NCBI GenBank assembly: GCA_020722945.1
Contig: DYJV01000059.1
Span: forward strand, 1 to 15,055
From: Candidatus Methylomirabilis sp.
GTDB lineage: Bacteria > DYJV01
Direction of reading: 5' to 3'
Length of the DNA: 15,055 nucleotides
The position numbers and the translations under genes are program-made. Every line of letters begins with the position of its first letter. Positions within the stretch are counted from its first letter, which is position 1. This document shows, one piece after another, positions 659 through 14,344 of this stretch. The notes under the pieces were generated by a model. It had not been told where the DNA came from. It did no database searches and saw only the letters and a list, made by a program, of their open reading frames with translations.

Positions 659-1849
659 TTAGTTAACTTTTAATACCATTGCAGCACCTGTATCACCTGC
701 TGCACAACCTGTAAACAAGCCATAACCGCCACCTTTAATAACAAGCTCCTCTATCATTTCAATTATGGTTCTTCCTGCAGTAGGTCCCTGAGGGTGTCCA
801 AATACAAGTGAGCTACCATAGTTGTTCATATCTTCCCACTTTACACCAAACTCCTTTGCAAAATATATATCATTTACTGCAAAAGGGTTGTGAGATTTGA
901 TTGCTTTCATATCTGTAATTTTGAGATTAGCTTTTTCAAGAGCCATCCTTGCAGCAGGAACTGGAGCTTTAGCCATAGCCCCTGTCTCAACTTTTGAATA
1001 ACCGTAAGATAGTATCTGAATGGTAATATTTTTGTCATCACTCAACTCTTTTGCTTTATCCTTACCTGCTACAATAATAAAGCAGTTCCCATCAGCAGGG
1101 TGTGTCTGAGCTCCAAAACTATGAACTCCATTTGGGAGAACAGGTCCCAAAGCAGCAAGGCTCTCTTTGGTAGAAGGCATAATCCCTTCATCTTTTTCAA
1201 GCAATACAGACTTCTTCTTGTTTATTTTAACTTCTATCGGGAAAAAGTATCTTTTCTGAAATTCGTTCTCATTTTTGAGTGCATCAAGATATTGATTGTA
1301 TCTCAAAACAGCCATATCATCACACTCTTCTTTTGTAGTCCCTATCTCTTTTGCTACTTTTTCAGCAGTCTGTATCATAGCATTTTTAGCAAAAGGATCG
1401 TAATTGAAGTTGTCCATCAACCAATTTTCATGTATCACCTCTCCACCTGGTCCAAGAGGGTTAGGCCATATAATATGAGGACCATTTGAACATCTATCAG
1501 TCATAAGATTTGCAGCACAATTCATATAACCATTGTCAACACCTATAGAAGAGTAGTAAAGACAAGTAGTTGATGTAGAGCATGCCTGACTTACATTGCA
1601 CCCTGGAATATGCTCTGCACCCATTAAAGCTGCTGCCCATGGAGCACCATAAAAAGCTTGTTTCTGATGTATAGTAAAACCTAAATATAGATAATCAAAA
1701 GATTTAGGGTTGATATTTTTGGATGCAAACCATTTTTTTGCAGTCTCTGCAGCAAGTTGAATGGAATGTTGATTCTGAAGAGTCATCTGCCATTTGGAAA
1801 ATGGGGTAGAGTAGTAACCTTTGTAAGGGATATAAACTTTTGTAAACAT
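659..1849 (-). CDS. Thiolase-family acetyl-CoA acetyltransferase
   Basis: A 396-residue thiolase, full length for the family. It would cleave a 3-oxoacyl-CoA with CoA to acetyl-CoA plus a shortened acyl-CoA, or run the reverse condensation, in the cytoplasm. The nucleophilic cysteine is C90 in NVSQACSTST. The other catalytic positions appear as H320 in SHNPF (the slot of the NEAF/HEAF motif), H352 in FGHPQGPTAGR and C382 in TGCAAGDTGAA near the C-terminus. The HNPF form is unlike classical bacterial acetoacetyl-CoA thiolases (NEAF), so the substrate may differ and a divergent, SCP2-like subfamily is possible. GGAGG lies just upstream of the ATG at 1849. The gene is second in a leftward operon, 60 bp after the acyl-CoA ligase, with a terminator beyond its stop. 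Thiolase membership is secure; the substrate is unknown. Confidence 0.9.
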   Translation of the reverse strand: MFTKVYIPYKGYYSTPFSKWQMTLQNQHSIQLAAETAKKWFASKNINPKSFDYLYLGFTIHQKQAFYGAPWAAALMGAEHIPGCNVSQACSTSTTCLYYSSIGVDNGYMNCAANLMTDRCSNGPHIIWPNPLGPGGEVIHENWLMDNFNYDPFAKNAMIQTAEKVAKEIGTTKEECDDMAVLRYNQYLDALKNENEFQKRYFFPIEVKINKKKSVLLEKDEGIMPSTKESLAALGPVLPNGVHSFGAQTHPADGNCFIIVAGKDKAKELSDDKNITIQILSYGYSKVETGAMAKAPVPAARMALEKANLKITDMKAIKSHNPFAVNDIYFAKEFGVKWEDMNNYGSSLVFGHPQGPTAGRTIIEMIEELVIKGGGYGLFTGCAAGDTGAAMVLKVN

Positions 1850-1909
1850 TAAATTTCCTCCTTGTTATGTTTGTAATATAAATTTTGTAGTAATAGTAAA
1901 AAATTAGAA

Positions 1910-3487
1910 TTAGTTTTCACTCCAAGTTCCATATCGTGTTCTTAACTCTCTATGTAAAATTTTACCCGTAGCAGTCCTCGGCATATCAGCATCTTTTATA
2001 AACTCTACTGTTTTAGGAATCTTGTAACCAGCAATTTTACCTTTGCAAAAATTCTTGATCTCCTCTTGGAGCTTTTCAGAAGGTGAAACTCCCTCATGCA
2101 AAACAATAACAGCAGTTACACACTCACCCCATTTTTTATCAGGAACACCAATAACTGCAACGTCTTTAACCTTATCGTGAGCACCAACAACATTTTCAAC
2201 TTCAGAAGGGTAAACATTCTCCCCACCAGTAATAATCATATTCTTTTTTCTATCAACAAGATATAAATATCCATCTTTATCTTTCTTAGCCATATCACCA
2301 GCACTAAAATAATCACCAACAAAAGCAGTTTTTGTAGCTTCTGGAAGTTTCCAATACTCTTTAAAGAGCATAGGGGATGATGAATATAACTCTCCAACCT
2401 CACCATCTTTAACTTCAACACCATCTTCATCTAAAATTTTGATTCTTCTTGTCCCAATAACTTCTCTACCTATTGAACCAAGCTTGGTAAACTGCTCTTC
2501 AGGTCTCAAAAGAGTCACTATTCCAGCTTCGGTAGAGCCGTAAGCTTCAAAAAGCTCAGAGTTTTTAAAGTAATCAAGAATAGCAAGTTTTGTATCTTTC
2601 CTTGCAGGTGCAGATGAACATAAAAGTTTTCGTATCTTGCTAACATCAAATTTACTTTTAACATCATCAGGGAGAGAGAGAATCATAATATAATGAGTAG
2701 GAACAAGAGAGGTAAATGTTATATTCTCATCTGATATTGTTTTGAGAAAATGCTCTGGATCAAAACTCTTCATATTATAGATACAAACTCCGCCATAAGT
2801 ATAGGTGAAGAGAAACGAGTAGTAAATTGAATTGATATGACACATAGGCATTACAAGAAGACCTATGTCTGTTCTGTTAAAACCAAACTCTGAAAGATTT
2901 ATCAGATAAAATGCAATTAGGCTCTCATGGGTTCTTACAACACCTTTTGGCTTCCCTGTTGTCCCTGAAGTGTATGTCATAACCCAAATATCTTCATGAC
3001 TCACATTTACATCAGGCTCCTTCTCAGATGACCTTGCAATAATCTCTTCGTATGAAGAAAAACCAGAAGGGGTAGCAGTATCTCCAAAATATATATAATT
3101 TTTAGAAAGGATAGGGTCAAGATTACCTCTGATACTATCTGCTCCCTTAGCAAACTCATTCTCAACTATGAAAGCCTTTGCTTCTGAATTTTTCAATATA
3201 TATTCATATTCAGCAGGTGGCATTCTAAACATAATAGGAACAGCCACTAACCCAGATTTTGCACAAGCTGCGTATATCTCCATCCACTCAACACAGTTAT
3301 AAGCAATTATAGCAATTTTATCACCTTTTTTAAGCCCAAGAGACAACAACCCATTTGCAAGTCTATTAACCCTTTCATTCCACTGATAAAAGGTCATCCC
3401 CCTCTTTAAATCTTTGGCTCCTAATTTGTCAGGGTAAAGCTCAGCAGCTGTTTTTAGAAGCTCCCCAACATGCAACCATTTAGACAT
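1910..3487 (-). CDS. AMP-forming acyl-CoA ligase (first of two)
   Basis: A 525-residue class I adenylate-forming enzyme. It uses ATP to form an acyl-adenylate and then an acyl-CoA thioester. Visible signatures are the phosphate-binding loop YTSGTTGKPKG (172-182), YGSTEAG (316-322), the AGD aspartate D398, the hinge aspartate D412 in VDRKKN, GGENVYP (421-427) and the PRTATGK motif with catalytic lysine K509. The large N-terminal domain runs to about residue 410 and the small mobile domain follows. Length is normal for FadD-like or aryl-acid ligases, and the substrate cannot be read from sequence. AAGGAGG (3495-3501) sits seven bases before the start. It leads the leftward operon with the thiolase and has a candidate sigma-54 promoter at 3569-3584. 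It is clearly distinct in sequence from the second ligase at 6777-8366, so the pair may take different acids. Confidence 0.93.
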   Translation of the reverse strand: MSKWLHVGELLKTAAELYPDKLGAKDLKRGMTFYQWNERVNRLANGLLSLGLKKGDKIAIIAYNCVEWMEIYAACAKSGLVAVPIMFRMPPAEYEYILKNSEAKAFIVENEFAKGADSIRGNLDPILSKNYIYFGDTATPSGFSSYEEIIARSSEKEPDVNVSHEDIWVMTYTSGTTGKPKGVVRTHESLIAFYLINLSEFGFNRTDIGLLVMPMCHINSIYYSFLFTYTYGGVCIYNMKSFDPEHFLKTISDENITFTSLVPTHYIMILSLPDDVKSKFDVSKIRKLLCSSAPARKDTKLAILDYFKNSELFEAYGSTEAGIVTLLRPEEQFTKLGSIGREVIGTRRIKILDEDGVEVKDGEVGELYSSSPMLFKEYWKLPEATKTAFVGDYFSAGDMAKKDKDGYLYLVDRKKNMIITGGENVYPSEVENVVGAHDKVKDVAVIGVPDKKWGECVTAVIVLHEGVSPSEKLQEEIKNFCKGKIAGYKIPKTVEFIKDADMPRTATGKILHRELRTRYGTWSEN

Positions 3488-3568
3488 GTTAAAACCTCCT
3501 TGAATTTAGTTGAATTTATCCTATTTAAAATAAAAAAGATTTTAAGTAGAAGATAATTTACATTTTAG

Positions 3569-3584
3569 AGCAATAATTAAACCA
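3569..3584 (-). promoter_or_regulatory. Candidate sigma-54 (-24/-12) promoter for the ligase-thiolase operon
   Basis: On the minus strand the sequence reads TGGTTTAATTATTGCT. The diagnostic GG (3583-3582) and GC (3571-3570) are exactly ten bases apart, with TGG at -24 and TTGCT at -12, close to the TGGCAC-N5-TTGCW consensus. The predicted start is near 3558, giving a leader of about 70 bases to the ATG at 3487. The -24 half lacks the CA of the consensus, so it is weaker than the plus-strand element. Confidence 0.5.
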
Positions 3585-3863
3585 AGTTTTTATAATAGTC
3601 ATGCTCTCTATTAAAAATAAGCCCTTTAAAAGAGTAATTTAGAAAATAATCAAAAAATGTTTAAAAATAAAGTATATAAAACATTTACCACCAAAAGATA
3701 AGTAAAATAAAAATCAAGTTTTTGAATAGAAATTAACTAGTAACCTAAAAAATAGTTTTATGTCAACCTATAATTATTTAAAATGATTGTTGATTTTTCT
3801 TGTTATTTCTATTAGGTAGAGGAATATTCACCTCTTGCAACAATAAAATTGTGATTAAATTAA

Positions 3864-3903
3864 TTTGTATATTATATGATACAAGTATAATTTAATATAC
3901 AAA
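3864..3903. promoter_or_regulatory. Dyad, candidate activator or repressor binding site
   Basis: TTTGTATATTA (3864-3874) and TAATATACAAA (3893-3903) form a perfect 11-bp inverted repeat with an 18-base spacer. A nested TTGTAT-N8-ATACAA is present at 3865-3884. The centre lies about 150 bp upstream of the predicted sigma-54 start near 4034, a typical distance for an enhancer-binding-protein site. The region is so AT-rich that chance is a serious alternative. Confidence 0.35.
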
Positions 3904-4007
3904 ACATTATCTATTTACAAAAGAAAACATTTTTATAAAAAGAATTTTTCATTCTATTATTAGCAAGAAAGATGATTTACAAATTATTTAACTACTCTTT
4001 TTCATCA

Positions 4008-4023
4008 TGGCAATATTTTTGCA
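4008..4023 (+). promoter_or_regulatory. Sigma-54 (-24/-12) promoter for the beta-oxidation operon
   Basis: TGGCAATATTTTTGCA carries TGGCA and TTGCA with the invariant GG (4009-4010) and GC (4021-4022) exactly ten bases apart. The predicted start is about 4034, leaving a leader of about 38 bases before the ATG at 4072, with AGGGAGGA as ribosome site (4061-4068). Sigma-54 promoters need an NtrC-type activator, which suggests substrate-inducible expression. Confidence 0.7.
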
Positions 4024-4071
4024 AACATCATTTTAATGTTTATTATAAAAAATAGATTTTAGGGAGGAACT

Positions 4072-5022
4072 ATGTCTGATAAACTAAAAATAGCAATTGT
4101 TGGAGCAGGTGCGTTGGGGGGGACTTTTGGTGTATTACTTGCGGATGCAGGCTTTGACGTTACTATGGTTGAAATTGACAAAAGAAGAGTTGATGCAATA
4201 AAAAGTAATGGTCTTACTTTATATATGCCTGATGGTTCTGTTAAAAAGATTAACATAAAAATTACAGACAATCCTAAAGATGTCGGTATTGTAGATATAG
4301 TTCAAATATCTGTTAAGGGGCCACATACTCACTCTGCAGCGACAATGGCTGCTCCTATGATAGGTGACAATACCTATGTTTTATCAGTTCAAAACGGACT
4401 AGGCAATCTTGAAGTAATAGCAAATGTTGTAGGCAAACATAAAGTTATCGGTGGAATTACTGCACATAGTGCAATGCCTTTATCTATGCACGAAATAAAA
4501 TATGCAGGTGGATTAGGGGGATTATGGATGGGCAGATACGATGCACAAGCTGATCCCAAAATCAAAGAAATTGGAGATATGTTTACACAAGCAGGTTTCA
4601 AGACAGATATCATAGAGGGGAATGTGGAAGTTCCTATCTGGCGTAAACTACTTGCAAATGTTGCATGTAATGCAGTAGCAGCTCTTACAGGTTTTACAGG
4701 TAATCAACTTTTAGGTTGCGAACATACACGAGAGCTCATCATTAAACTTGCAGAGGAGACAGCAAATGTAGCCAAAGCAAAAGGTCTTGAGTTTGAAGAG
4801 CTTAAGTTTGCAGGTGCTTTTGTTTTAAAAGCATTATCAGGAGTCAAGGACAACAAAATTTCCATGCTTCAAGATATTGAAGCAAAAAGGAAAACTGAGA
4901 TAGAAACATTAAATGAAGCTATCTGCAAAGAGGGTGCAAACCACGGTGTGGCTACTCCTTACAACGAAACAATTACAATTCTTATAAAAGCTTTCGAGCA
5001 AAAAATGTTATGGGACAAATAA
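4072..5022 (+). CDS. Ketopantoate reductase (ApbA/PanE) family dehydrogenase
   Basis: A 316-residue NAD(P)-dependent oxidoreductase of the 2-dehydropantoate 2-reductase family. The Rossmann loop GAGALGGTFG is at residues 11-20. Residues matching my recollection of E. coli PanE are all present: K82 in SVKG, N108 in QNGLGN, K192 in WRKLLAN, N196 and N200, S264 in SMLQDIEA and E276 in KTEIE. The fold and catalytic set are therefore intact, and it would reduce a 2-oxo acid to a 2-hydroxy acid or run the reverse. It is the first gene of a catabolic operon, 24 bp ahead of an enoyl-CoA hydratase, and no other pantothenate gene is nearby. A role on a pathway 2-hydroxy or 2-oxo acid is thus as likely as one in CoA synthesis. 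Either reading is inference from context. Confidence 0.88.
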   Translation: MSDKLKIAIVGAGALGGTFGVLLADAGFDVTMVEIDKRRVDAIKSNGLTLYMPDGSVKKINIKITDNPKDVGIVDIVQISVKGPHTHSAATMAAPMIGDNTYVLSVQNGLGNLEVIANVVGKHKVIGGITAHSAMPLSMHEIKYAGGLGGLWMGRYDAQADPKIKEIGDMFTQAGFKTDIIEGNVEVPIWRKLLANVACNAVAALTGFTGNQLLGCEHTRELIIKLAEETANVAKAKGLEFEELKFAGAFVLKALSGVKDNKISMLQDIEAKRKTEIETLNEAICKEGANHGVATPYNETITILIKAFEQKMLWDK

Positions 5023-5046
5023 AATAAAAAATTTTAGGAGGGTAAT

Positions 5047-5856
5047 ATGAGTTATAAATTTTTTAATTTTACTATTGATGAAGGTGTAGGAGTTATTGAT
5101 TTAAACAGACCTCCTGCAAATTCCCTAAATGTAGAGTTTACAGAAGAACTTTCAAAAGTTTTTGATGCCATTACTCCTAACAATGATGTAAAAGTAGTGC
5201 TTATCAAAAGTGCAATTCCGGGATTTTTCGTAGCAGGTGCAGATATCAAAATGTTTGCTAAAATGACCCCACTTGAAGGGAAAGCTGTATCAAAAGCATT
5301 GCAGGATTGCGTTCAGAAGCTTGAAAATATGGACAAGATAAGCATTGCAGCTCTTGGAGGATTTGCACTTGGTGGCGGATTAGAGCTTGCTCTTGCTTGT
5401 GATTTTAGATTTGCTTCAAAAGTAGCAAAAGTAAAAGATAAAGAGAAACCTGTTATGCTTGGACTTCCTGAGACATCCCTTGGAGTAATCCCTGGAGCTG
5501 GTGGGACACAGAGACTTTCAAGAATTATAGGTCCAAAAAAAGCTCTATTTTATATCGCTCAAGCTGCTCAAATATCTGTTGAAGAGGCTTTTAGCATAGG
5601 TATAATCGAAAAAATGTTTGACAATGATGAGCAGATGAACTCTGAAGCTCTTGCTTTTGCAAAATCTCTCGCCAAAAAAGCTACTTATGCAATAGCATGT
5701 GCAAAGAGAGCTATCTACAACGGTGTTGACGAAACTATAGAAACAGGATTAAAATTTGAATGCCAAGAATTTTATAACTGCTTTGTATCTGATGATTCTT
5801 CAGAGGGATTCAACGCATTTGTTGAAAAAAGAAAAGCAAATTTTCAGGGTAAATAA
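5047..5856 (+). CDS. Enoyl-CoA hydratase/isomerase (crotonase family)
   Basis: A 269-residue crotonase-fold protein, normal length. It would add water across a trans-2-enoyl-CoA to give a 3-hydroxyacyl-CoA. The oxyanion-hole region FVAGADIKMF is at residues 61-70, and GGFALGGGLELAL at 104-116. Both hydratase glutamates are present: E113 in GLEL and E142 in LPETSLGVIPGAGG. This supports true hydratase activity rather than a degenerate family member. A short lysine-rich segment between the two glutamates (about 126-134) looks like a small insertion. AGGAGG (5036-5041) precedes the ATG. It sits between the PanE-like gene and the hydroxyacyl-CoA dehydrogenase, with which it forms consecutive beta-oxidation steps. 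Confidence 0.93.
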   Translation: MSYKFFNFTIDEGVGVIDLNRPPANSLNVEFTEELSKVFDAITPNNDVKVVLIKSAIPGFFVAGADIKMFAKMTPLEGKAVSKALQDCVQKLENMDKISIAALGGFALGGGLELALACDFRFASKVAKVKDKEKPVMLGLPETSLGVIPGAGGTQRLSRIIGPKKALFYIAQAAQISVEEAFSIGIIEKMFDNDEQMNSEALAFAKSLAKKATYAIACAKRAIYNGVDETIETGLKFECQEFYNCFVSDDSSEGFNAFVEKRKANFQGK

Positions 5857-5883
5857 ATAATAGCAAATATCGGAGGATAAAGT

Positions 5884-6753
5884 ATGACTTTTGAAAATAT
5901 TAAGACAATTGGAGTTTGTGGTGCAGGAAGTATGGGTTCTGGTATCATCCAGATCTGTGCAGCAGCAGGTTATCAGGTGCAGGTTCTCGATGTAAATGAA
6001 GATGCTTGGAAAAGGGGTAAAAGCCTCATCGAGAAAAGTCTCTCTGCTATGCTCAAAAAGGAGAAAATCTCACAACAAGATTTTGATAACACTATCGGTA
6101 GAATAAAATTTTCTACAGATATTAACCAATTCAAAAATGTAGATTTTGTTATTGAGGCTGTTTTTGAAAATATGGAAGTTAAAAAAGCCACTTATAATAA
6201 TCTCGATTCTGTTCTTAAAGATGATGTTATTATCGCTACCAATACATCATCTATCTGTATCACTGAGTTGTCTGCACTTACCAAAAGATCTGACAAGTTT
6301 ATTGGGATGCACTTTTTCAATCCTGTTCCAATGATGAAGCTTGTAGAGATTATACCCGCATACCAGACATCTGCTTCAACAATAGAAATAGCAATGCAAA
6401 TTTCAAAAAAGATAGGGAAAGAACCTGTAAAATGCACAGATTCACCAGGCTTCATAGTAAACAGACTTCTTGTTCCAATGTTTATAGAAGCTGCAAGGAT
6501 GGTAGAAGAGGGTGTTGCTACCCCTGAAGATATAGACAAAGCCATGAAACTTGGTGCAGGATTGCCTATGGGACCTTGCCAGCTTATGGATTATACAGGT
6601 GTTGAAATTACATACCATGTTGGAAATATTTTTTATGATTACACCAAAAATCCTTACTACACACCACCATTTCTCCTCAGAAAAATGGTTAGTTCAGGGT
6701 ATCTTGGAATGAAGACAGGAAAAGGTTTCTACGATTATTCAAAAAAAGATTAA
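5884..6753 (+). CDS. hbd: 3-hydroxyacyl-CoA (3-hydroxybutyryl-CoA) dehydrogenase
   Basis: A 289-residue stand-alone dehydrogenase that oxidises (3S)-hydroxyacyl-CoA with NAD to 3-oxoacyl-CoA. The NAD loop GAGSMGSG is at residues 13-20. The expected catalytic residues are S122 in NTSS, H143 in MHFFNP, E155 in VEII and N193 in FIVNR, all in the same relative spacing as in the mammalian short-chain enzyme. The C-terminal domain carries PMGPCQLMDYTG (228-239) and ends with the usual K-T-G-K-G-F-Y-D-Y signature. GGAGG precedes the start, and the gene is 27 bp after the hydratase and 23 bp before the second ligase. Chain length cannot be told; the compact size fits short-chain substrates. No frameshift or truncation is visible. 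Confidence 0.93.
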   Translation: MTFENIKTIGVCGAGSMGSGIIQICAAAGYQVQVLDVNEDAWKRGKSLIEKSLSAMLKKEKISQQDFDNTIGRIKFSTDINQFKNVDFVIEAVFENMEVKKATYNNLDSVLKDDVIIATNTSSICITELSALTKRSDKFIGMHFFNPVPMMKLVEIIPAYQTSASTIEIAMQISKKIGKEPVKCTDSPGFIVNRLLVPMFIEAARMVEEGVATPEDIDKAMKLGAGLPMGPCQLMDYTGVEITYHVGNIFYDYTKNPYYTPPFLLRKMVSSGYLGMKTGKGFYDYSKKD

Positions 6754-6776
6754 TATTAATAATAGGAGAGTGAATT

Positions 6777-8366
6777 ATGAACTATGGATATTATGCAGTA
6801 ATAAATTCAGAAAAATTTCCAAATAAAGAGTGCTTGATCGAAAGATCCTACGAGAAAAATAGTCGTAGATCACTCACTTGGAGAGAGTTTAACACAGAGA
6901 TAAACAGATTCTCAAATTACCTAAAAGATAAAGTAGGTATAAAGAAGGGTGATTATGTTATCCATTTTCAGAAAGATACACTCGAATGGATAATTACCTA
7001 CTTTGCAATCTGCAAACTTGGAGCAGTGGTTGTACCTCTCAATTTTAGATTTGTTGAGGCTGATGTTAAGTATTCAGCCGATGTTTGTAGCCCCACTACA
7101 ATCATTTACAGCTCAGACTTTGCAGACATCGTAAAAAATGTCAAACCTGAATTATCTTCAGTCAAAAATTATATTTATGTTGGGGACAACTGTCCCGATT
7201 TTGCTACTGATTACTTCTCTGTAATCAAAAATTACAGCAATACAGCAGAGACCATTGTTGATGTCCCTGCAGAGCATAATATTGCAATGATGTTTACATC
7301 AGGAACCACAGGTAAACCAAAACCTGTTATCCACACTCACGGCTCACTTAATTCTACTGCAATCGGCAATGGTATGAGTTACTTTGTTGAAAGAGAGGAT
7401 AATTACCTATTTTTCCTCCCACTTTATCACTCAGGGACATTTTTCTTATGGGCACCATTTTATGCCTCAGGAGCAACAGGCACAATACTAAAAGAGTTCA
7501 GAGACCCTGAATGGATAATAAAGGGAATAGCAGATGAAAAGTGCACAGATGTTTTATTTGTTGTTCCAGTAGCAATTGCTATTCTCAATGCTATCCATGC
7601 TGGCAAAATAAACCTCAATAATTACGACCTTTCAAGCTGGAAATATATGGAGATAGGTGCACAACCTGTTCCATTTCATGTAATGAAGGACCTCGTTAAT
7701 TGTCTGCCATGCGGGGTATCAAATATTTACGGTATTACCGAAGGTGGCGGCGGAGGAACTTTTAATCTCTACCCTCACGAAGTTCTTAAAAAACCGGGTT
7801 CAATAGGGAAACCTACATTTGGAGTTCAGGCAAGACTTGTTGATATGGACGGCAATGTTATTACTGAGCCCAACAAACCTGGAGAGATAACATTCCGCTC
7901 CCCAAGATTAATGAAAGAGTATTACAACAACCCTGAAATGACCAAAGAGACAATAAAAAATGGCTGGCTCTTTACAGGTGACCTTATGGAGATGGATGAA
8001 GAGGGCTATTTCTATGTAGTTGACAGAAAAAAAGATATGATAACATCTGGTGGAGAGAATATCTACCCCGTTGAGATAGAAGATGCTCTTCACGACCACC
8101 CAAAGATAGATGATGTTGCCGTAATTGGAGCACCAGATCCAAGACTTGTTGAGGTAGTTATGGCAATAGTTCAGCTTAAAAAGGGTGAAACAATGACAGA
8201 AGAGGAAGTTATAGAATTCTGTAAATCAAAAATAGCACTCTACAAAGTTCCAAGAAAAGTTGTTTTTGGTGATGTTCTCAGAAATCCTACAGGGAAGATA
8301 ATGAAACCTGCATTAAGAGAGAAATATACAGGAAGAAAAGAGGCTTTTATAGATATCAGAAAATAG
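6777..8366 (+). CDS. AMP-forming acyl-CoA ligase (second of two)
   Basis: A 529-residue class I adenylate-forming ligase. Signatures are the phosphate loop FTSGTTGKPKP (173-183), YGITEGG (318-324) followed by a run of glycines, TGD (400-402), the hinge D416 in VDRKKD, GGENIYP (425-431) and NPTGK with catalytic K507. The last residue of the phosphate loop is proline where glycine is usual. All residues known to be essential are present, so it should be active. The acid-pocket segment (LPLYHSG, about 214-220) differs from the first ligase (MPMCHINS), which points to a different substrate. It is the fourth gene of the plus-strand operon, 23 bp after the hydroxyacyl-CoA dehydrogenase, and a terminator hairpin follows its stop. 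Substrate unknown. Confidence 0.93.
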   Translation: MNYGYYAVINSEKFPNKECLIERSYEKNSRRSLTWREFNTEINRFSNYLKDKVGIKKGDYVIHFQKDTLEWIITYFAICKLGAVVVPLNFRFVEADVKYSADVCSPTTIIYSSDFADIVKNVKPELSSVKNYIYVGDNCPDFATDYFSVIKNYSNTAETIVDVPAEHNIAMMFTSGTTGKPKPVIHTHGSLNSTAIGNGMSYFVEREDNYLFFLPLYHSGTFFLWAPFYASGATGTILKEFRDPEWIIKGIADEKCTDVLFVVPVAIAILNAIHAGKINLNNYDLSSWKYMEIGAQPVPFHVMKDLVNCLPCGVSNIYGITEGGGGGTFNLYPHEVLKKPGSIGKPTFGVQARLVDMDGNVITEPNKPGEITFRSPRLMKEYYNNPEMTKETIKNGWLFTGDLMEMDEEGYFYVVDRKKDMITSGGENIYPVEIEDALHDHPKIDDVAVIGAPDPRLVEVVMAIVQLKKGETMTEEEVIEFCKSKIALYKVPRKVVFGDVLRNPTGKIMKPALREKYTGRKEAFIDIRK

Positions 8367-8411
8367 TATAAACCAACTAACCATCCATAATAAAAATAAA
8401 TTTAAAATCTT

Positions 8412-8447
8412 AAAAAAGTGGACTTCAGCATAGTCCACTTTTCTTTT
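8412..8447 (+). terminator. Terminator or attenuator between ligase and iorA
   Basis: AAAAGTGGACT (8414-8424) pairs perfectly with AGTCCACTTTT (8432-8442) around a seven-base loop, followed by CTTTT. This is a good intrinsic terminator. Only about a dozen bases separate it from the iorA ribosome site (AAGGAGG, 8459-8465), too few for a promoter. Transcription of iorAB must therefore start upstream and pass the hairpin, so partial termination or attenuation is likely. Confidence 0.7.
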
Positions 8448-8469
8448 AAAATTAAATAAAGGAGGAGTT

Positions 8470-10215
8470 ATGAAGGAGTTATTGTCAGGTAATGAGGCAA
8501 TCGCAAGGGGTATTTATGAATCTGGAGTAAGGTTAGCCTCTGCTTACCCGGGCACACCAAGCACAGAGATACTTGAAAATCTTGCATCCAAATATAAAGA
8601 GATATATTCAGAGTGGGCTACTAATGAAAAAGTGGCACTTGAAGTAGCTATTGGAGCTTCTATGGCTGGTGCAAGATCAGTTGCTACAATGAAACATGTC
8701 GGGTTAAATGTTGCTGCGGATCCTCTATTTACAGTCTCATATACCGGAGTTAACGGTGGCCTCGTATTAGTAACTTGTGATGACCCTGAACTACACAGCT
8801 CTCAAAACGAACAGGACAACAGATATTATGGCAAATCTGCCAAAATGCCTATAATAGAACCATCTGACAGTCAAGAAGCAAAAGATTTTATAAAAGAGGC
8901 ATTCAAGATAAGTGAAGAGTTTGATACACCTGTTCTTTTTAGAAGCACGACAAGAATTTCACACTCTAAAAGTATAGTTGAGCTTGGTAAAAGGGTTGAG
9001 AAAGATATGCCAAAGGAGCTCTCCAAAGAATCTTCCAAATATACAATGCTTCCTGTAAATGCAAGGAAAAGACACCCTATTGTAGAAGAACGATTGAAGA
9101 AACTATCTGAATTTGGAGTCTCTTCAAATCTCAACAAAGTTGAATACAACAGCAAAACATTAGGCATCGTAACCTCTGGAATATCTTATCAGTATGCAAA
9201 AGAAGTTTTTCCCGATGCATCATTTTTAAAACTTGGGCTTACATTCCCTCTACCAGCAAAATTAGTAAAAGAGTTTGCTTCAAAGGTAGACAAGTTGTGG
9301 GTCATAGAGGAGCTTGATCCATTTCTTGAAAACGAGATAAAATTACTTGGGGTTAATGTCGAAAAAGGTAAAAACACTCTCCCTGTTTGTGGAGAGTTAA
9401 ACCAAAAAATATTAAGAAAAGCATTTGGAGTAAAAGGTGAAGAGCAAGTTTTTGCTGCATCAGAAAATTTACCGCTAAGACCTCCAACCTTATGTCCCGG
9501 ATGTGCTCACAGAGGTTTATTTACAGTTCTTGGGAAACTAAAATGTTTTGTTTCAGGTGATATTGGATGTTATACACTTGGAGCATTGCCTCCACTATCT
9601 GCTATGCATTCAACCGTATGTATGGGTGCAAGTATCAGTATGGCTCACGGAATAAGAAAAGTTTTTACACCTGATTCAATCAAAAATAAAACTGTCGCAG
9701 TTATTGGAGATTCCACCTTTTTTCATTCAGGTATCACTTCACTACTCGATATGATTTACAACAATGGCAGTGGTGTGGTTATCATAATGGACAATAGGAT
9801 TACAGCTATGACCGGTGGTCAGGAAAATCCCGGCTCAGGGAAAACATTGCTTTCAGAACCAACAATCGTTACAGATGTCTTTGATGTTGTAAAAGCACTT
9901 GGAGTAAAACATGCATACCAATTCAATTCTTACGACCTTAAAGCAACAGAAGCTATCCTCAAAGAAGCTCTTGACCGTGACGGGCTGACTGTCCTTGTTT
10001 GTAAACAGCCTTGTGTTTTACAGTATAAAGTTTTCAAACAACCGCTTAAAGTTGATGTTGATAAATGTAAAGGGTGCAAATCGTGTATAAAAGTCGGCTG
10101 TATAGCTCTCAACCTCAAAGAGATAAATGGAGAGGTAAAAGCTGAAATTGACGAAAATATGTGCGTAGGTTGCGGCGTATGTGCCCAAGTATGTAAATTT
10201 GATGCAATAAATTAA
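8470..10215 (+). CDS. iorA: Indolepyruvate:ferredoxin oxidoreductase, alpha subunit
   Basis: A 581-residue thiamin-diphosphate enzyme subunit. With IorB it oxidatively decarboxylates a 2-oxo acid, classically an aryl pyruvate, to acyl-CoA and CO2, reducing ferredoxin. The N-terminal pyrimidine-binding domain has SAYPGTPSTEI (24-34) and KHVGLNVAADP (75-85). The thiamin-diphosphate domain begins near CPGCAHRG (342-349), continues with GDIGCYTLG and has the GDS (413-415) to DN (441-442) cofactor motif. The C-terminus is a ferredoxin domain with C533, C536, C539, C544 and C565, C568, C571, C575, enough for two 4Fe-4S clusters; the first has a C-x4-C ending. Length is slightly short but normal for the family. 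It is 17 bp ahead of iorB. The substrate could be an aryl or a branched 2-oxo acid; context links it to acyl-CoA catabolism. Confidence 0.93.
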   Translation: MKELLSGNEAIARGIYESGVRLASAYPGTPSTEILENLASKYKEIYSEWATNEKVALEVAIGASMAGARSVATMKHVGLNVAADPLFTVSYTGVNGGLVLVTCDDPELHSSQNEQDNRYYGKSAKMPIIEPSDSQEAKDFIKEAFKISEEFDTPVLFRSTTRISHSKSIVELGKRVEKDMPKELSKESSKYTMLPVNARKRHPIVEERLKKLSEFGVSSNLNKVEYNSKTLGIVTSGISYQYAKEVFPDASFLKLGLTFPLPAKLVKEFASKVDKLWVIEELDPFLENEIKLLGVNVEKGKNTLPVCGELNQKILRKAFGVKGEEQVFAASENLPLRPPTLCPGCAHRGLFTVLGKLKCFVSGDIGCYTLGALPPLSAMHSTVCMGASISMAHGIRKVFTPDSIKNKTVAVIGDSTFFHSGITSLLDMIYNNGSGVVIIMDNRITAMTGGQENPGSGKTLLSEPTIVTDVFDVVKALGVKHAYQFNSYDLKATEAILKEALDRDGLTVLVCKQPCVLQYKVFKQPLKVDVDKCKGCKSCIKVGCIALNLKEINGEVKAEIDENMCVGCGVCAQVCKFDAIN

Positions 10216-10232
10216 TCAATTAAGGAGGAGAT

Positions 10233-10814
10233 ATGAAGACTTTTAATATAGTTCTTGCAGGTGTTGGAGGTCAGGGAGTTATCCTTGCAAGTAAAATTTT
10301 GAGCGAAGTTGGGATATCACAAGGTCTCGATGTAAAACAGAGTGAAGTCCATGGAATGAGCCAGAGGGGTGGTAGCGTTACAAGCCATGTTAAAATAGGT
10401 TCAAAAGTTTATTCGCCACTTATTACTGAGGGTGAAGCAGATATTGTTCTTGCTTTTGAACTACTTGAAGGGATGAGGAATAAACATTATCTTAAAAAAG
10501 GCGGACAAATTATATACAACACATCAAGAGTAAATCCGATTACTGTATCATCAGGTGCCGTAAAATATCCAGAAAATATCGAGAGTGAACTCAAAAATCT
10601 TGATTGTGAAGTGCATGGATTAGACGCTTTTGATCTATCGAAAAAAGTTGGCAACACTAAATCAGCAAACGTTGTTCTTGTAGGAGCTGTTTCAAAATTT
10701 CTCACTTTCATAGATGAAAATAAATGGAAAGAGGTTATAAAAAGTAGTGTCCCTGCAAAAGTTTTAGACCTTAATTTAAAAGCATTTGAAGCAGGTAGAA
10801 ATAGTGTCCAATAA
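10233..10814 (+). CDS. iorB: Indolepyruvate:ferredoxin oxidoreductase, beta subunit
   Basis: A 193-residue partner of IorA, built from the single pyruvate/ketoisovalerate oxidoreductase gamma-type domain. Diagnostic motifs are GVGGQGVILASKIL (10-23) and the EVHGMSQRGGSV segment (38-49), which the family uses at the subunit and CoA-binding interface. It has no cysteine clusters, as expected, because the iron-sulfur centres are on IorA. AAGGAGGA sits just before the start, 17 bp from the iorA stop, so the two are co-translated or at least co-transcribed. No terminator hairpin is visible directly after its stop, so some read-through into the TRAP genes is possible. Confidence 0.92.
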   Translation: MKTFNIVLAGVGGQGVILASKILSEVGISQGLDVKQSEVHGMSQRGGSVTSHVKIGSKVYSPLITEGEADIVLAFELLEGMRNKHYLKKGGQIIYNTSRVNPITVSSGAVKYPENIESELKNLDCEVHGLDAFDLSKKVGNTKSANVVLVGAVSKFLTFIDENKWKEVIKSSVPAKVLDLNLKAFEAGRNSVQ

Positions 10815-10843
10815 AACCTTGTTTGTTTTTTTGGTAATTGTTG

Positions 10844-10882
10844 TTGACTATTTTGATTTTTTCTGATACTAATTTTTATATC
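10844..10882 (+). promoter_or_regulatory. Possible sigma-70-type promoter for the TRAP operon
   Basis: Two overlapping readings are possible in the 120-bp gap. TTGACT (10844-10849) is followed 17 bases later by TACTAA preceded by TG, an extended -10 form. Alternatively TTGATT (10853-10858) is followed 18 bases later by TATATC (10877-10882). Neither is strong. No GG-N10-GC sigma-54 element is present, unlike in the divergent region. Confidence 0.3.
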
Positions 10883-10902
10883 TAAACTAAAAATTGTTTA
10901 GA
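10881..10902. promoter_or_regulatory. Small dyad upstream of dctP, possible operator
   Basis: TCTAAAC (10881-10887) and GTTTAGA (10896-10902) form a perfect 7-bp inverted repeat with an eight-base spacer, 32 bp before the dctP start and overlapping or just below the candidate promoter. Size and position suit a dimeric repressor site, but AT-rich chance is not excluded. Confidence 0.3.
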
Positions 10903-10934
10903 ACCACAAAATTTATTTTATTAAGGAGGAGATT

Positions 10935-11993
10935 ATGTATTTAAAAAAGTTTTTTAGAGTTTCATTTTTATCTGTTGTTCTGTTATCTTTTTCTCTTACT
11001 TCTTTATCTTTTGCTAAAGAAGATCCTATGGCAAAATGGAAACCAAAGTTTGACACCAAAAAAGCTAAATACTATTTTAAAGTATCCAATGTTTCTAACC
11101 CTGTATTAGAAGGTGTAAAGACAGGATTTAACGTAAGAGATGCATTATGGGAAAAATCTAATGGTCAGATGGGTATGGATTACTATCCATTCTCTCAGCT
11201 TGGTGGAGAAGTAGAAGTTTTTAATATGCTTCAGACAGGGACAATTCAAGGTATGGCTATATCTTCTGTTGCAGCAGCAAATTTTGGTCCAAGAATGGGT
11301 ATAGTTAATGTTCCTTTTGTTATTGATAGTTTCAAAAAACTTGAAGCTTTTGTTGACAACAAAGAGATATTTCAGCCATTTCTTGATGGAATGAAAGACA
11401 AAGGTATCAAAGGTATTAACTTCAGTGGTTACGGTAATTACGGTTGGGCATCCACAAAACCTATAAAAACTTTAGCTGATGCTAAATCTGTCAAATTCAG
11501 AATAGCTGAAGCACCAGTCAACAAAGATTCTTACGCTGCATGGGGACTTAATCCTGTTGTAATGCCTTGGCCTGATGTTCCTATCGCACTCAAACAAGGT
11601 GTTATCGAAGGTCTTGATCATACTCCTGCTGTTTGCTGGATCACCAAAAAGATGGAAGTTTGTAAATATTACACAGTGTTAGACTATGCTCAAGGATTAT
11701 TTATCTGGATTGTCAATCAAGCATGGTATAACAAATTACCTCAAGATTTACAAAAAGTTTTCACAGATATTGTAAATGAAGAGTGTAAAAAAGCAAGATC
11801 TCTCACACAGAAACAGGAAGAAGATTCAATTGCTGCTGCTAAAAAAGCAGGTATCACTTTCTTTACACTTCCTGACAAAGATATGGCAGATCTAAAGAAA
11901 ATGACAGCAGAAAAAGTTTATCCAAGACAAGCTGAGATCATAGGCAAAGATTATTTTGAAAAAGTTAGAGCTTTTATGGCTACAGTTAAGTAA
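10935..11993 (+). CDS. dctP: TRAP transporter periplasmic solute-binding protein (DctP type)
   Basis: A 352-residue exported binding protein. A lysine-rich start, a hydrophobic core (about 9-24) and SFA-KED give a standard signal peptide, with likely cleavage after A27. There is no lipobox cysteine. The mature part has the family layout: QLGGEVEVFNMLQTGTIQG (88-106), the binding arginine R189 in VKFRIAEAP, and QGVIEGLDHTP (221-231) in the slot normally ending in a D-G-x-E-N-P-like motif. R189 is expected to grip a substrate carboxylate. A cysteine and several aromatic residues near the site (W211, W235) could shape it for a larger or aromatic acid, which is speculative. AAGGAGGA precedes the start. 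A strong hairpin follows the stop, so this subunit may be made in excess over the membrane parts. Confidence 0.92.
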   Translation: MYLKKFFRVSFLSVVLLSFSLTSLSFAKEDPMAKWKPKFDTKKAKYYFKVSNVSNPVLEGVKTGFNVRDALWEKSNGQMGMDYYPFSQLGGEVEVFNMLQTGTIQGMAISSVAAANFGPRMGIVNVPFVIDSFKKLEAFVDNKEIFQPFLDGMKDKGIKGINFSGYGNYGWASTKPIKTLADAKSVKFRIAEAPVNKDSYAAWGLNPVVMPWPDVPIALKQGVIEGLDHTPAVCWITKKMEVCKYYTVLDYAQGLFIWIVNQAWYNKLPQDLQKVFTDIVNEECKKARSLTQKQEEDSIAAAKKAGITFFTLPDKDMADLKKMTAEKVYPRQAEIIGKDYFEKVRAFMATVK

Positions 11994-12003
11994 TTCTATT
12001 TAT

Positions 12004-12033
12004 AAAGGGGATGTATCTCATCCCCTTTTCTTT
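12004..12033 (+). terminator. Terminator or transcript-stabilising hairpin between dctP and dctQ
   Basis: AAAGGGGATG (12004-12013) pairs perfectly with CATCCCCTTT (12019-12028) around a five-base loop, followed by TCTTT. It lies 10 bp past the dctP stop and within the 87-bp dctP-dctQ gap. It would reduce transcription into dctQM or protect the dctP messenger. Confidence 0.7.
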
Positions 12034-12080
12034 ATCTTTAAATTCAAATTCTATTTTTTACTAAAAATGAGGGACTAATT

Positions 12081-12575
12081 ATGCTAAATTTTCTTAAAAA
12101 ATTAGATAAAACATTGTCCATTTTTGAAAATTGGACACTTTTTTTTACAACAATGTTAGGCTTAATAGTTTTATTTGTCGCTGTTGTTTTAAGATATAGC
12201 ATCAGCTATACATTAGCATGGGCAGATGAGCTTGTGAGGGATGTAATCATCTATACTACATTGATAGGTTGTAGTGTTGCTGTCCGAAATAGGGGTATGC
12301 TCAAAATAGATGCTCTTACCCAGATAGTTCCAGCCCTAAAACCTATCTGTGAATATATTGCAAATATCGCAACACTCATTTTCTCTATCATTATTATCAA
12401 ATATGGGTATCAGATGGTATTACAGCAGTATAACACAAAGCAATATAGCGTAATTCTCGAAATCCCACTCTATCTACTATACCTTATCTTACCTACAATG
12501 GGAGTATTGATGCTTATACGTATTTTAATGGTTTTTTATGAAGATATTACAAAAAATAAATTTCTTCAAAAATAA
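12081..12575 (+). CDS. dctQ: TRAP transporter small membrane subunit (DctQ type)
   Basis: A 164-residue inner-membrane protein with four predicted hydrophobic segments (about 18-38, 52-68, 89-112, 130-152), as usual for DctQ. The family signature is clear: an A-W-A-D-E-L-x-R segment at 46-53, then S-x-A-V-R-N-R-G-M-L-K-I-D at 65-77. It pairs with DctM to form the sodium-coupled transporter that accepts substrate from the binding protein. GAGGG (12069-12073) lies seven bases before the ATG, a weaker ribosome site than its neighbours have. It is 23 bp ahead of dctM and behind the hairpin that follows dctP. No fusion to DctM. Confidence 0.92.
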   Translation: MLNFLKKLDKTLSIFENWTLFFTTMLGLIVLFVAVVLRYSISYTLAWADELVRDVIIYTTLIGCSVAVRNRGMLKIDALTQIVPALKPICEYIANIATLIFSIIIIKYGYQMVLQQYNTKQYSVILEIPLYLLYLILPTMGVLMLIRILMVFYEDITKNKFLQK

Positions 12576-12598
12576 ATAAAAGTTAGGAGATATTTTAT

Positions 12599-13900
12599 AT
12601 GGAAGGTTCAACTTCTACGTACATAACCATAGGTTTAATAATGTTGGGGCTTATGTTCACCACAATCCCTGTATTTATGTCTTTATTCTTTACTGCTGTT
12701 ATCGGCTTTGTAGTTTTTCAGGATTACCCTATTATAATGCTTGCACAAGCACTCTTTAGAAGTATGGATAACTTTGCACTTGTAGTAGTTTTGTTCTTTA
12801 TACTTTGTGGCAATATTATGACCACAGGTAAAATAGTTGACAAGCTAATCCGTGTAGCAAATGCCTTTGTTGGATGGATGCCTGGTGGGCTTGGAATGGC
12901 TGGTGTAGTAGCATGTGCTCTATTTGGAGCAATATCAGGCTCTACTGTTGCAACTGTTGTTGCTATAGGTGGATTTATGATTCCAGCTCTTTTAGAAAAT
13001 GGATATGATGAGTCTTATACAGTAGGTGTTATGACTGCCTCACCAATACTTGGAATAGTTATCCCTCCAAGTATATCTATGATACTTTACTCAATGATCA
13101 CCAATGATTCACTTGAAGCTCTCTTTATGACAGGATTTGTCCCTGGTATAATGATCGTTATAGCTTTCTGTATATATTCATACTATATTGCCAAAAAGAA
13201 AAATTTCAAACTCCTCCCCAAACCACCAGCAAAAGAGATTTTAGCTGCTTTCAAAGATGGTTTTTGGGCTCTTATGCTCCCTGTATTGATTTTTGGAGGG
13301 ATATTTTCAGGTGCATTCACTGCTAATGAAGCAGCAGTTGTTGCTTGTATGTATGCTTTTTTTGTTGAAATATTCATTCATAAAAGTATGGGATTAAAAG
13401 AGGTATACAAAGTTACTGTTTCATCAGCAGTTACTTCAGCTTCCCTTCTTATAATAGTTGCTGGAGCTACTTGTTTTGGTAAATACCTTACTCTTGAGCA
13501 GATACCATCAATCATCACAGAAGCTGTAATACAGCATATACAGTCACCATGGGTTTTCCTTCTTATAGTCAATATTCTTTTACTTATTGTAGGGACATTT
13601 ATGGATATTATCTCTGCTACTCTTATCCTTACTCCAATATTTATACCAATGCTTCATCAATTTGGGATCAACTCAATTCATTTTGGGCTTCTTATGACAA
13701 TAAATCTTGGGATAGGTTATATTACACCACCTCTTGGGGTAAGTTTGTTTATTACAGGTGCAATGGTAAAGCGGGATATAATTTATGTTACCAAAGCCAT
13801 TCTCCCATTTCTCCTTATTCAGATAGCTATTCTTGCAATACTAACTTACATCCCTGATATTTCACTTTTTTTACCTAAACTATTTTACGGCATAAAATAA
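12599..13900 (+). CDS. dctM: TRAP transporter large membrane subunit (DctM type)
   Basis: A 433-residue, highly hydrophobic protein of full DctM length, with about a dozen membrane segments. It is the ion-coupled transport channel of the TRAP system. Characteristic stretches are GAISGSTVATV (110-120), the hairpin motif GIVIPPSISM (152-161), GGIFSGAFTANEAA (233-246), GTFMD (332-336) and GIGYITPPLGVSLF (371-384). The two repeats of the protein each contain a P-P motif, as expected for the elevator-type ion transporter fold. AGGAG (12585-12589) precedes the ATG. The gene is 12 bp ahead of the UspA-family gene, an arrangement also found in some other TRAP operons. Confidence 0.94.
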   Translation: MEGSTSTYITIGLIMLGLMFTTIPVFMSLFFTAVIGFVVFQDYPIIMLAQALFRSMDNFALVVVLFFILCGNIMTTGKIVDKLIRVANAFVGWMPGGLGMAGVVACALFGAISGSTVATVVAIGGFMIPALLENGYDESYTVGVMTASPILGIVIPPSISMILYSMITNDSLEALFMTGFVPGIMIVIAFCIYSYYIAKKKNFKLLPKPPAKEILAAFKDGFWALMLPVLIFGGIFSGAFTANEAAVVACMYAFFVEIFIHKSMGLKEVYKVTVSSAVTSASLLIIVAGATCFGKYLTLEQIPSIITEAVIQHIQSPWVFLLIVNILLLIVGTFMDIISATLILTPIFIPMLHQFGINSIHFGLLMTINLGIGYITPPLGVSLFITGAMVKRDIIYVTKAILPFLLIQIAILAILTYIPDISLFLPKLFYGIK

Positions 13901-13912
13901 AAGGAGTCCACA

Positions 13913-14344
13913 ATGACAATGAGAATATTGCTCCCAGTAGATGAGAGAGAAGGTTCTATAAGGACAAGTAATTACTTTATAAGAATGAAAGATAGATTTA
14001 ATCCAGTGATCAATTTAATAACAGTATACGACGATACTCAACTTCAAGGTCACGGTCTTCTCGGTGATGTAGAGGAGAAAATTCGCCAAACAGCAGATAA
14101 AATAGGTGAGAAATTACTCAATAATTATCGCACCAAATTAGAGAATGCTGGGATATTTATAGAAAATGCCTATATGGTTTCAGGGGCTCCCGGTGAATCT
14201 ATATGCAAAGAATCTGACAAACTAAATGTTGATATGATAGCTATCTCCCCAAGTAACAATAGTAATCTTATGAACTGCATTCTTGGCTCTGTTACTCACT
14301 ATGTAATTCACAATGCAAGTATGCCTGTTATACTAATAAGATAA
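13913..14344 (+). CDS. UspA-family protein linked to the TRAP transporter
   Basis: A 143-residue universal-stress-protein-type domain, one-domain length. The N-terminal strand RILLPVD, the middle GAPGESICKES (91-101) and the C-terminal GSVTHYVIHNASMPVILIR identify the fold. In ATP-binding members the loop reads G-x2-G-x9-G-S/T. Here the loop is SPSNNSNLMNCILGS (112-126), with S112, N115 and N118 in place of the glycines, so nucleotide binding may be altered or lost. It starts 12 bp after dctM and is the last gene before the terminator. TeaD of the Halomonas ectoine TRAP transporter is a known UspA-type regulator of transport encoded in the same kind of position, which suggests a similar role here. 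AAGGAG precedes the ATG at 13913; a second in-frame ATG is two codons later. Confidence 0.85.
   Translation: MTMRILLPVDEREGSIRTSNYFIRMKDRFNPVINLITVYDDTQLQGHGLLGDVEEKIRQTADKIGEKLLNNYRTKLENAGIFIENAYMVSGAPGESICKESDKLNVDMIAISPSNNSNLMNCILGSVTHYVIHNASMPVILIR

Follow-up and report, generated by a model that had tools for sequence, protein, structure and literature searches.

A conserved gene module of Candidatus Methylomirabilis sp. that may lead phenylacetate-type acids to benzoyl-coenzyme A

The window analyzed here is an entire contig of 15 kb (15,055 nucleotides; G000:C100 in our genome set) from Candidatus Methylomirabilis sp., and it carries a module that joins a tripartite ATP-independent periplasmic (TRAP) transporter, two acyl-coenzyme A (CoA) ligases, a PanE-family dehydrogenase, the oxidoreductase IorAB, and genes of beta-oxidation. 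Open reading frames (ORFs) were called and then assigned to NCBIfam and Pfam families, giving 12 intact ORFs arranged as a divergent minus-strand pair (thl and lig1) and a ten-gene run on the plus strand (Table 1). All the genes named in an initial annotation made from the sequence by eye were present as intact ORFs, and its parts list and coordinates were correct. Gaps of 12-120 bases within the plus-strand run, and a 584-base region from which the two units diverge, make a ten-gene operon likely; a GGAG-like site precedes nearly every gene. A promoter scan of the divergent gap returned no site above chance, and no terminator was found there. We suggest, at a probability of roughly 0.55, that the module encodes a peripheral route by which phenylacetate-, phenylpyruvate-, and phenyllactate-type acids are taken anaerobically to benzoyl-CoA, which the Bam enzymes of the host would then open.

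Table 1. Genes and intergenic region of the window, with the evidence for each assignment.
Feature	Product or description	Position	Strand	Evidence
thl	Thiolase of an unusual subfamily	659..1849	-	Motifs QACST, HNPFAVND, GHPQGPT, GCAAGD; NCBIfam/Pfam
lig1	AMP-forming acyl-CoA ligase, proposed aryl acid-CoA ligase	1910..3487	-	NCBIfam/Pfam
intergenic	Region separating the divergent units	3488..4071	.	584 bases
panE	PanE/ApbA-family dehydrogenase, proposed arylpyruvate reductase/aryl-lactate dehydrogenase	4072..5022	+	NCBIfam/Pfam
ech	Enoyl-CoA hydratase, proposed cinnamoyl-CoA hydratase	5047..5856	+	62% in G001
hbd	3-Hydroxyacyl-CoA dehydrogenase (HBD type)	5884..6753	+	79% in G001
lig2	AMP-forming acyl-CoA ligase	6777..8366	+	62% to D. 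multivorans cluster ligase
iorA	Arylpyruvate:ferredoxin oxidoreductase, alpha subunit	8470..10215	+	TIGR03336 above cut-off
iorB	Beta subunit	10233..10814	+	NF005325 above cut-off
dctP	TRAP solute-binding protein, proposed aryl acid binder	10935..11993	+	NCBIfam/Pfam
dctQ	TRAP small membrane subunit	12081..12575	+	Pfam DctQ
dctM	TRAP large membrane subunit	12599..13900	+	Pfam DctM
usp	Universal stress protein, closing gene of the run	13913..14344	+	Pfam Usp; 12 bases past dctM

IorA scored 713 bits against the indolepyruvate-specific model TIGR03336 (cut-off 651), while the thiolase reached only 178 bits against its best NCBIfam model (cut-off 241), placing its subfamily at a distance from characterized ones. 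The catalytic K, S, and E of PanE are conserved in the alignment, and a glutamate (E34) follows beta-2; since an acidic residue at that point is a general mark of NAD(H) use, this PanE is predicted to use NAD(H). It is the sole PanE match in G000 at E <= 1e-30, and no PanE match was found on viral contigs. DctP matched many TRAP binding proteins in the PDB, the top one at 104 bits and none of them ligand-specific. Acyl-CoA dehydrogenase, Etf, dehydratase, and regulator genes are all missing among the window ORFs as assigned to families.

The same arrangement was found in the other genome of the same order that we compared, the public metagenome-assembled genome (MAG) JALVYZ01 (G001); these two genomes are the whole lineage in the searched set and the only representatives there of its class and phylum. 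In G001 the order and orientation thl-lig1 / panE-ech-hbd-lig2 | iorA-iorB-dctP-Q-M are the same, with identities of 53-80%; the genes are split between two contigs, with breaks within lig2 and within iorA, and we infer that these contigs adjoin. Because G001 keeps this gene order at such identities, the comparison indicates a real, conserved gene cluster and excludes a chance neighborhood. The statement that housekeeping genes are lacking held for the window, within the limit of its 15 kb, and did not extend to G001, where hisG and hisI directly adjoin thl. Acyl-CoA dehydrogenase with Etf, a feature of complete beta-oxidation operons, is absent from the G001 cluster as from the window. Both genomes carry a second iorA, 36-38% identical to that of the module and away from it, so the module copy is likely specialized. 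A panB match was found in G000 and none in G001, and since PanE is kept in the module there, its role in that genome is probably not pantothenate synthesis.

A parallel cluster lies in the sulfate reducer Desulfococcus multivorans. We take genome G149 to be strain DSM 2059, with two thl genes at 2.77 Mb, where the text of Doerries et al. 2016 (PMC5109826) places its clusters. The 22-kb stretch G149:C1:2,775,000-2,797,300 contains hbd, a fusion of enoyl-CoA hydratase and 3-hydroxyacyl-CoA dehydrogenase (ECH/HBD), thl, a response regulator and kinases, dctM, dctQ, and dctP, and then lig2, lig1, a dehydratase, an activator, a PanE of a second type, an ACT-domain protein, iorB, and iorA; bamB genes precede the cluster and bamA follows 6 kb past it. 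The window TRAP proteins are 57% (DctP), 48% (DctQ), and 64% (DctM) identical to those of this cluster, whereas DctP is 26-32% identical to other TRAP systems. Identities for the remaining proteins are 54% (lig1), 62% (lig2), 51.5% (iorA), 43% (iorB), 45% (hbd, to the HBD gene at 2,775,170), and 58-59% for thl to both D. multivorans thiolases, one in the phenylpropanoate operon and one in the phenylacetate cluster. The two PanE proteins belong to different branches of one family (~25%), both with the acidic residue after beta-2.

According to the text of PMC5109826, the D. multivorans clusters are specifically formed on phenylacetate and phenylpyruvate, phenyllactate is a growth substrate, and the induced set comprises TRAP, ligase, Hbd, hydratase, thiolase, and IorA3B3. 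The hydratase and thiolase copies of the cinnamate/3-phenylpropanoate operon are assigned in that text to the conversion of cinnamoyl-CoA to benzoyl-CoA and acetyl-CoA, and the step from phenylacetate to benzoyl-CoA is left unclear. The combination is therefore already described at the proteogenomic level in D. multivorans, contrary to the initial annotation, which had not known it as a described pathway; the novelty lies in a variant of that module in a distinct lineage and in a full, testable route for phenylacetate. Locus tags assigned by gene order are uncertain by one gene: FadD4 corresponds to either lig1 or lig2, and C24850-70 to dehydratase/activator/PanE or to activator/PanE/ACT protein.

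The hydratase and thiolase of the phenylacetate cluster resemble the copies of the cinnamoyl-CoA route, which argues for a phenylacetate/phenylpyruvate route via cinnamoyl-CoA: the two ECH/HBD fusion genes (phenylacetate cluster and cinnamate operon) differ at 4 of 2043 bases and 2 of 680 amino acids, and the thiolase pair shares 73.5% identity and falls in sister clades in the tree. The fusion genes themselves, at G149:C1:2770112-2772154 and 2776549-2778591, lie 6 kb apart with 93 identical bases upstream, the product of a very recent duplication or gene conversion.

Set against the D. multivorans cluster feature by feature, the window has TRAP DctPQM, two ligases, hydratase, HBD, the thiolase subfamily, IorAB, and a PanE-family dehydrogenase. 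It differs in having ECH and HBD as separate genes, a PanE of the other branch, and neither the dehydratase and activator nor the two-component system that D. multivorans carries inside its cluster. No dehydratase or activator gene lies in the window (they are unlinked, elsewhere in G000), and counting them as a feature of the module is our reading and not that of the text of PMC5109826. The window ORFs include no two-component regulators, and since such regulators vary between clusters (the D. toluolica set is split in two), we regard the window as a variant form of the D. multivorans-type module and not as an identical member.

Relatives of the thiolase extend this comparison. Scanning genome contigs with a three-sequence thiolase alignment returned at least 538 relatives; the best 80 of these were kept, with 57-78% identity and mostly from Desulfobacterota, with Bacillota and others also represented. 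The window and G001 thiolases fall in a supported clade with a group of MAG loci (L046-L093) and Bacillota sequences. Neighborhoods were counted over 79 loci, leaving out that of G001, with related MAGs counted as independent and flanks of varying length. A lig1 at least 50% identical lies near thl in 28 of the 79. One type of cluster, lig1-panE-thl-iorA-iorB, occurs in L046, L047, L052, L056, and L093 with a window-like PanE (57-61%) and IorA (59-62%), though lig1 is beyond the available stretch in L046 and L052. A second type, found in many Desulfobacterales, reads [iorAB]-panE2-activator-dehydratase-[ADP-forming-type acyl-CoA synthetase]-lig1-thl, and the remaining neighborhoods have xanthine-dehydrogenase-like hydroxylases or beta-oxidation genes alone. 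IorAB was present at 11 of the 79 loci, every one of which also has PanE, and a PF06050-family dehydratase was flanking at 18, accompanied by lig1 in all 18 and by the activator in 17. Nearly complete sets are contiguous in L059 and L093. Eight genomes that bear the module (L046, L047, L049, L052, L055, L056, L059, and L093) were checked for the same dehydratase: seven have it at 52-57% identity, inside or outside the cluster, and it was not found in the 1.7-Mb MAG of L052. Taken with the G001 synteny and the D. multivorans cluster, the Desulfobacterota-type lig1-panE-thl-iorAB clusters bear out the claim of a single module of TRAP, PanE, IorAB, ligases, and beta-oxidation. The same gene set was thus recovered in other genomes, and a separation of iorAB and TRAP from the beta-oxidation genes in all relatives, with different substrates, was not seen.

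We also observed other arrangements around these genes. In L096 (376-2170), a TRAP transporter (DctQ 54% and DctM 67% to the window) lies just upstream of panE2-activator-dehydratase-synthetase-lig1-thl, which ties this transporter to the dehydratase-type cluster. The thl subfamily is found downstream of xanthine-dehydrogenase-like hydroxylase genes in L053 (4154-6499), L051, L057, L077, L081, and L083 (Desulfobacula and related), several of which also have a TRAP transporter, which represents another use of the subfamily. In the Geobacter MAGs L110 (8119-12909) and L115, the benzoyl-CoA pathway genes for Had and cyclohexadiene-carbonyl-CoA hydratase are directly followed by thl-ech-hbd. Between iorB and panE, L059 (5745-6197) and D. 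multivorans (2794221-2794673) encode a paired ACT-domain protein (Pfam ACT_8) that the window lacks; in the Desulfobacterota clusters it is possibly a regulator sensing an aryl acid.

The G000 genome encodes what the module would need downstream. Contig C69 carries BamA/Oah (581 bits), Had (493), and glutaryl-CoA dehydrogenase (619), all above cut-off, and C141 carries an AOR-family protein of 653 amino acids followed by ferredoxin-like, HdrD-like, HdrA-like, and FlpD-like genes. From domains and gene order, C141 reads as BamB-F with an FdhD-like gene between, and its BamB-like protein is 66% and 58% identical to two BamB-like genes of D. multivorans. Composition of both contigs matches the window (r 0.93-0.96). 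This gene complement indicates that the host can use benzoyl-CoA through the class II Bam pathway.

A lone dehydratase lies on C140, its nearest solved relative being HadB, the alpha subunit of 2-hydroxyisocaproyl-CoA dehydratase (159 bits), and a BcrAD-type activator (49% identity) lies on C53. Cysteines 80, 119, and 349 of the dehydratase are invariant, align with those of HadB, and are presumably cluster ligands. A double-cubane-cluster protein, a family expected to have six cysteines, was considered and rejected: the PDB matches are HadB, MbdO, and BzdO, and only four cysteines are invariant in eight sequences. Separately, a second, short PF06050 protein (330-337 amino acids) follows a lipoprotein-like gene in both genomes, at 1480-2472 of L125 (G000:C72) and 1480-2493 of L127 (G001:C305), and is possibly a partner of the lone dehydratase.

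The initial annotation had proposed that a hydroxy acid is oxidized to an oxo acid, decarboxylated by IorAB to an acyl-CoA, and shortened by beta-oxidation. That order is probably wrong: the substrates of IorAB are arylpyruvates, and the arylacetyl-CoA formed from them, with the ring on its beta carbon, cannot be beta-oxidized, whereas hydratase, HBD, and thiolase work on an enoyl-CoA whose beta carbon is free. The recurrence of a 2-hydroxyacyl-CoA dehydratase with its activator instead points to the probable reverse, from oxo acid to hydroxy acid to enoyl-CoA and then beta-oxidation. In the route we propose, TRAP DctPQM would import the aryl acid, PanE would reduce phenylpyruvate to phenyllactate with NADH, and one ligase would form phenyllactyl-CoA. 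The HadB-like dehydratase and its activator, encoded outside the module, would convert this to cinnamoyl-CoA, and ECH, HBD, and the thiolase, acting on 3-oxo-3-phenylpropanoyl-CoA, would yield benzoyl-CoA and acetyl-CoA. Since dehydration would supply the enoyl-CoA, the missing acyl-CoA dehydrogenase would be accounted for.

Phenylacetate would enter through the other ligase, with IorAB carboxylating phenylacetyl-CoA to phenylpyruvate (C8 + CO2 = C7 + C2); on phenylpyruvate, IorAB may in addition work in the oxidative direction and yield reduced ferredoxin. Anaerobes that build aromatic amino acids out of arylacetates are known to use the carboxylating direction, which is the least certain step here. 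Because CoA would be released at carboxylation, a second activation would follow, hence two ligases. We hold this phenylacetate route, with IorAB as a catabolic reductive carboxylase, then PanE, a second CoA activation, a single-subunit dehydratase to cinnamoyl-CoA, and thiolysis, only tentatively, at somewhat short of even odds; no published proposal of a carboxylation-first route for phenylacetate was found in the literature searched. How strict anaerobes make benzoyl-CoA from phenylacetate without Pad enzymes was left open in 2016 by the text of PMC5109826. The cluster comparison suggests a route that would be atom-balanced, complete, and use every gene, and it places the module in the lineage of Candidatus Methylomirabilis sp., apart from D. 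multivorans.

Several points weigh against this interpretation. Substrates, the dehydratase reaction, and the ligase roles are predictions from the genes. In G000 neither the dehydratase nor the activator gene is linked to the module, and the two lie apart; the dehydratase occurs as one subunit per cluster with no partner found in these clusters, while described 2-hydroxyacyl-CoA dehydratases (HadBC, FldBC) are heterodimers. Reductive carboxylation requires strongly reduced ferredoxin. In G001 no BamA scored above cut-off, and benzoyl-CoA there may have another fate. Genes of the Pad type were not found in the window by ORFs, NCBIfam, or Pfam, the rest of G000 not having been searched. A two-residue difference between hydratases may be hardly resolvable by proteomics, and their near identity may reflect recent duplication. 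In the text of PMC5109826, IorA3B3 is lower on phenylacetate than on phenylpyruvate, which is read there as gratuitous induction, and detection of dehydratase, activator, or PanE protein is not stated.

It is also possible, though unlikely, that the same module uses IorAB oxidatively alone, turning phenylpyruvate into phenylacetyl-CoA, CO2, and reduced ferredoxin, with phenylacetyl-CoA reaching benzoyl-CoA by alpha-oxidation via phenylglyoxylate and ECH, HBD, and thiolase serving cinnamate or phenylpropenoates taken up by the same transporter. Alpha-oxidation is the published reading in the text of PMC5109826, which treats IorA3B3 as specific to phenylpyruvate and cites archaeal IorAB that work oxidatively, and the absence of an acyl-CoA dehydrogenase from the window is compatible with an unsaturated substrate such as cinnamate. 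However, this gives no clear role to the phenylacetate-induced thiolase, and no enzyme for phenylglyoxylate to benzoyl-CoA was found according to that text. A cinnamate operon exists separately in D. multivorans, and still the phenylacetate cluster keeps its own copy of the same hydratase and a thiolase; the association with a dehydratase would go unexplained.

PanE-family enzymes act on branched 2-oxo acids, and the order given in the initial annotation is chemically possible with a branched aliphatic substrate: imported 2-hydroxy-3-methylvalerate would be oxidized by PanE and decarboxylated by IorAB, and the resulting 2-methylbutyryl-CoA would be dehydrogenated elsewhere in the genome's repertoire (G000 has eight acyl-CoA dehydrogenases outside the window) and cleaved through ECH, HBD, and thiolase to acetyl-CoA and propionyl-CoA. 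We consider this improbable, since orthologous TRAP, ligases, thiolase, and IorAB lie in the phenylacetate/phenylpyruvate cluster of D. multivorans near bam genes, IorA passes the indolepyruvate-specific model, and the dehydratase would be left idle. Two independent neighboring units, with PanE as ketopantoate reductase for CoA synthesis, IorAB serving amino-acid metabolism, and the other genes forming a short-chain fatty acid pathway, would fit the single PanE match and the panB of G000, but G001 keeps PanE in the module without a panB match, both genomes have a second iorAB away from it, and PanE, IorAB, lig1, and thl recur jointly across lineages with two PanE types that both bear the acidic residue marking NAD use; this explanation is likewise improbable.

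The proposed aryl acid route shares steps with several known systems. The Fld system of Clostridium sporogenes (FldABC/FldI; cited in PMC13416013) likewise takes phenyllactyl-CoA to cinnamoyl-CoA with an activator-dependent dehydratase, but Fld reduces cinnamoyl-CoA to phenylpropionate where our route would oxidize it to benzoyl-CoA, and the window system would use a one-subunit dehydratase and ligases in place of a CoA transferase. Anaerobic beta-oxidation of 3-phenylpropanoate/cinnamate (D. multivorans, Aromatoleum aromaticum EbN1) reaches benzoyl-CoA and acetyl-CoA by the same hydratase, dehydrogenase, and thiolase reactions, whereas the window lacks acyl-CoA dehydrogenase and has PanE and IorAB in addition. 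The Pad pathway of denitrifiers (PadJ, PadBCD, PadEFGHI) also converts phenylacetate to benzoyl-CoA; PadB and PadEFGHI are absent in D. multivorans according to the text of PMC5109826. A route proposed for the benzene culture BzS1 (PMC13416013) also runs from phenylpyruvate through phenyllactyl-CoA and cinnamoyl-CoA to benzoyl-CoA, but for benzene, not phenylacetate, and without carboxylation by IorAB.

Both ends of the contig (window 1-380 and 14500-15055) carry degenerate palindromic repeats in inverted orientation (GACCACCCCGTCA, TGCCACCCCT...AGGGGAATT). A contaminating contig was ruled out, as the end repeats are shared by dozens of contigs in this assembly and composition matches. These repeats recur at about 80 places across G000, often at contig ends, and are probably a dispersed family resembling miniature inverted-repeat transposable elements or repetitive extragenic palindromes that broke the assembly.

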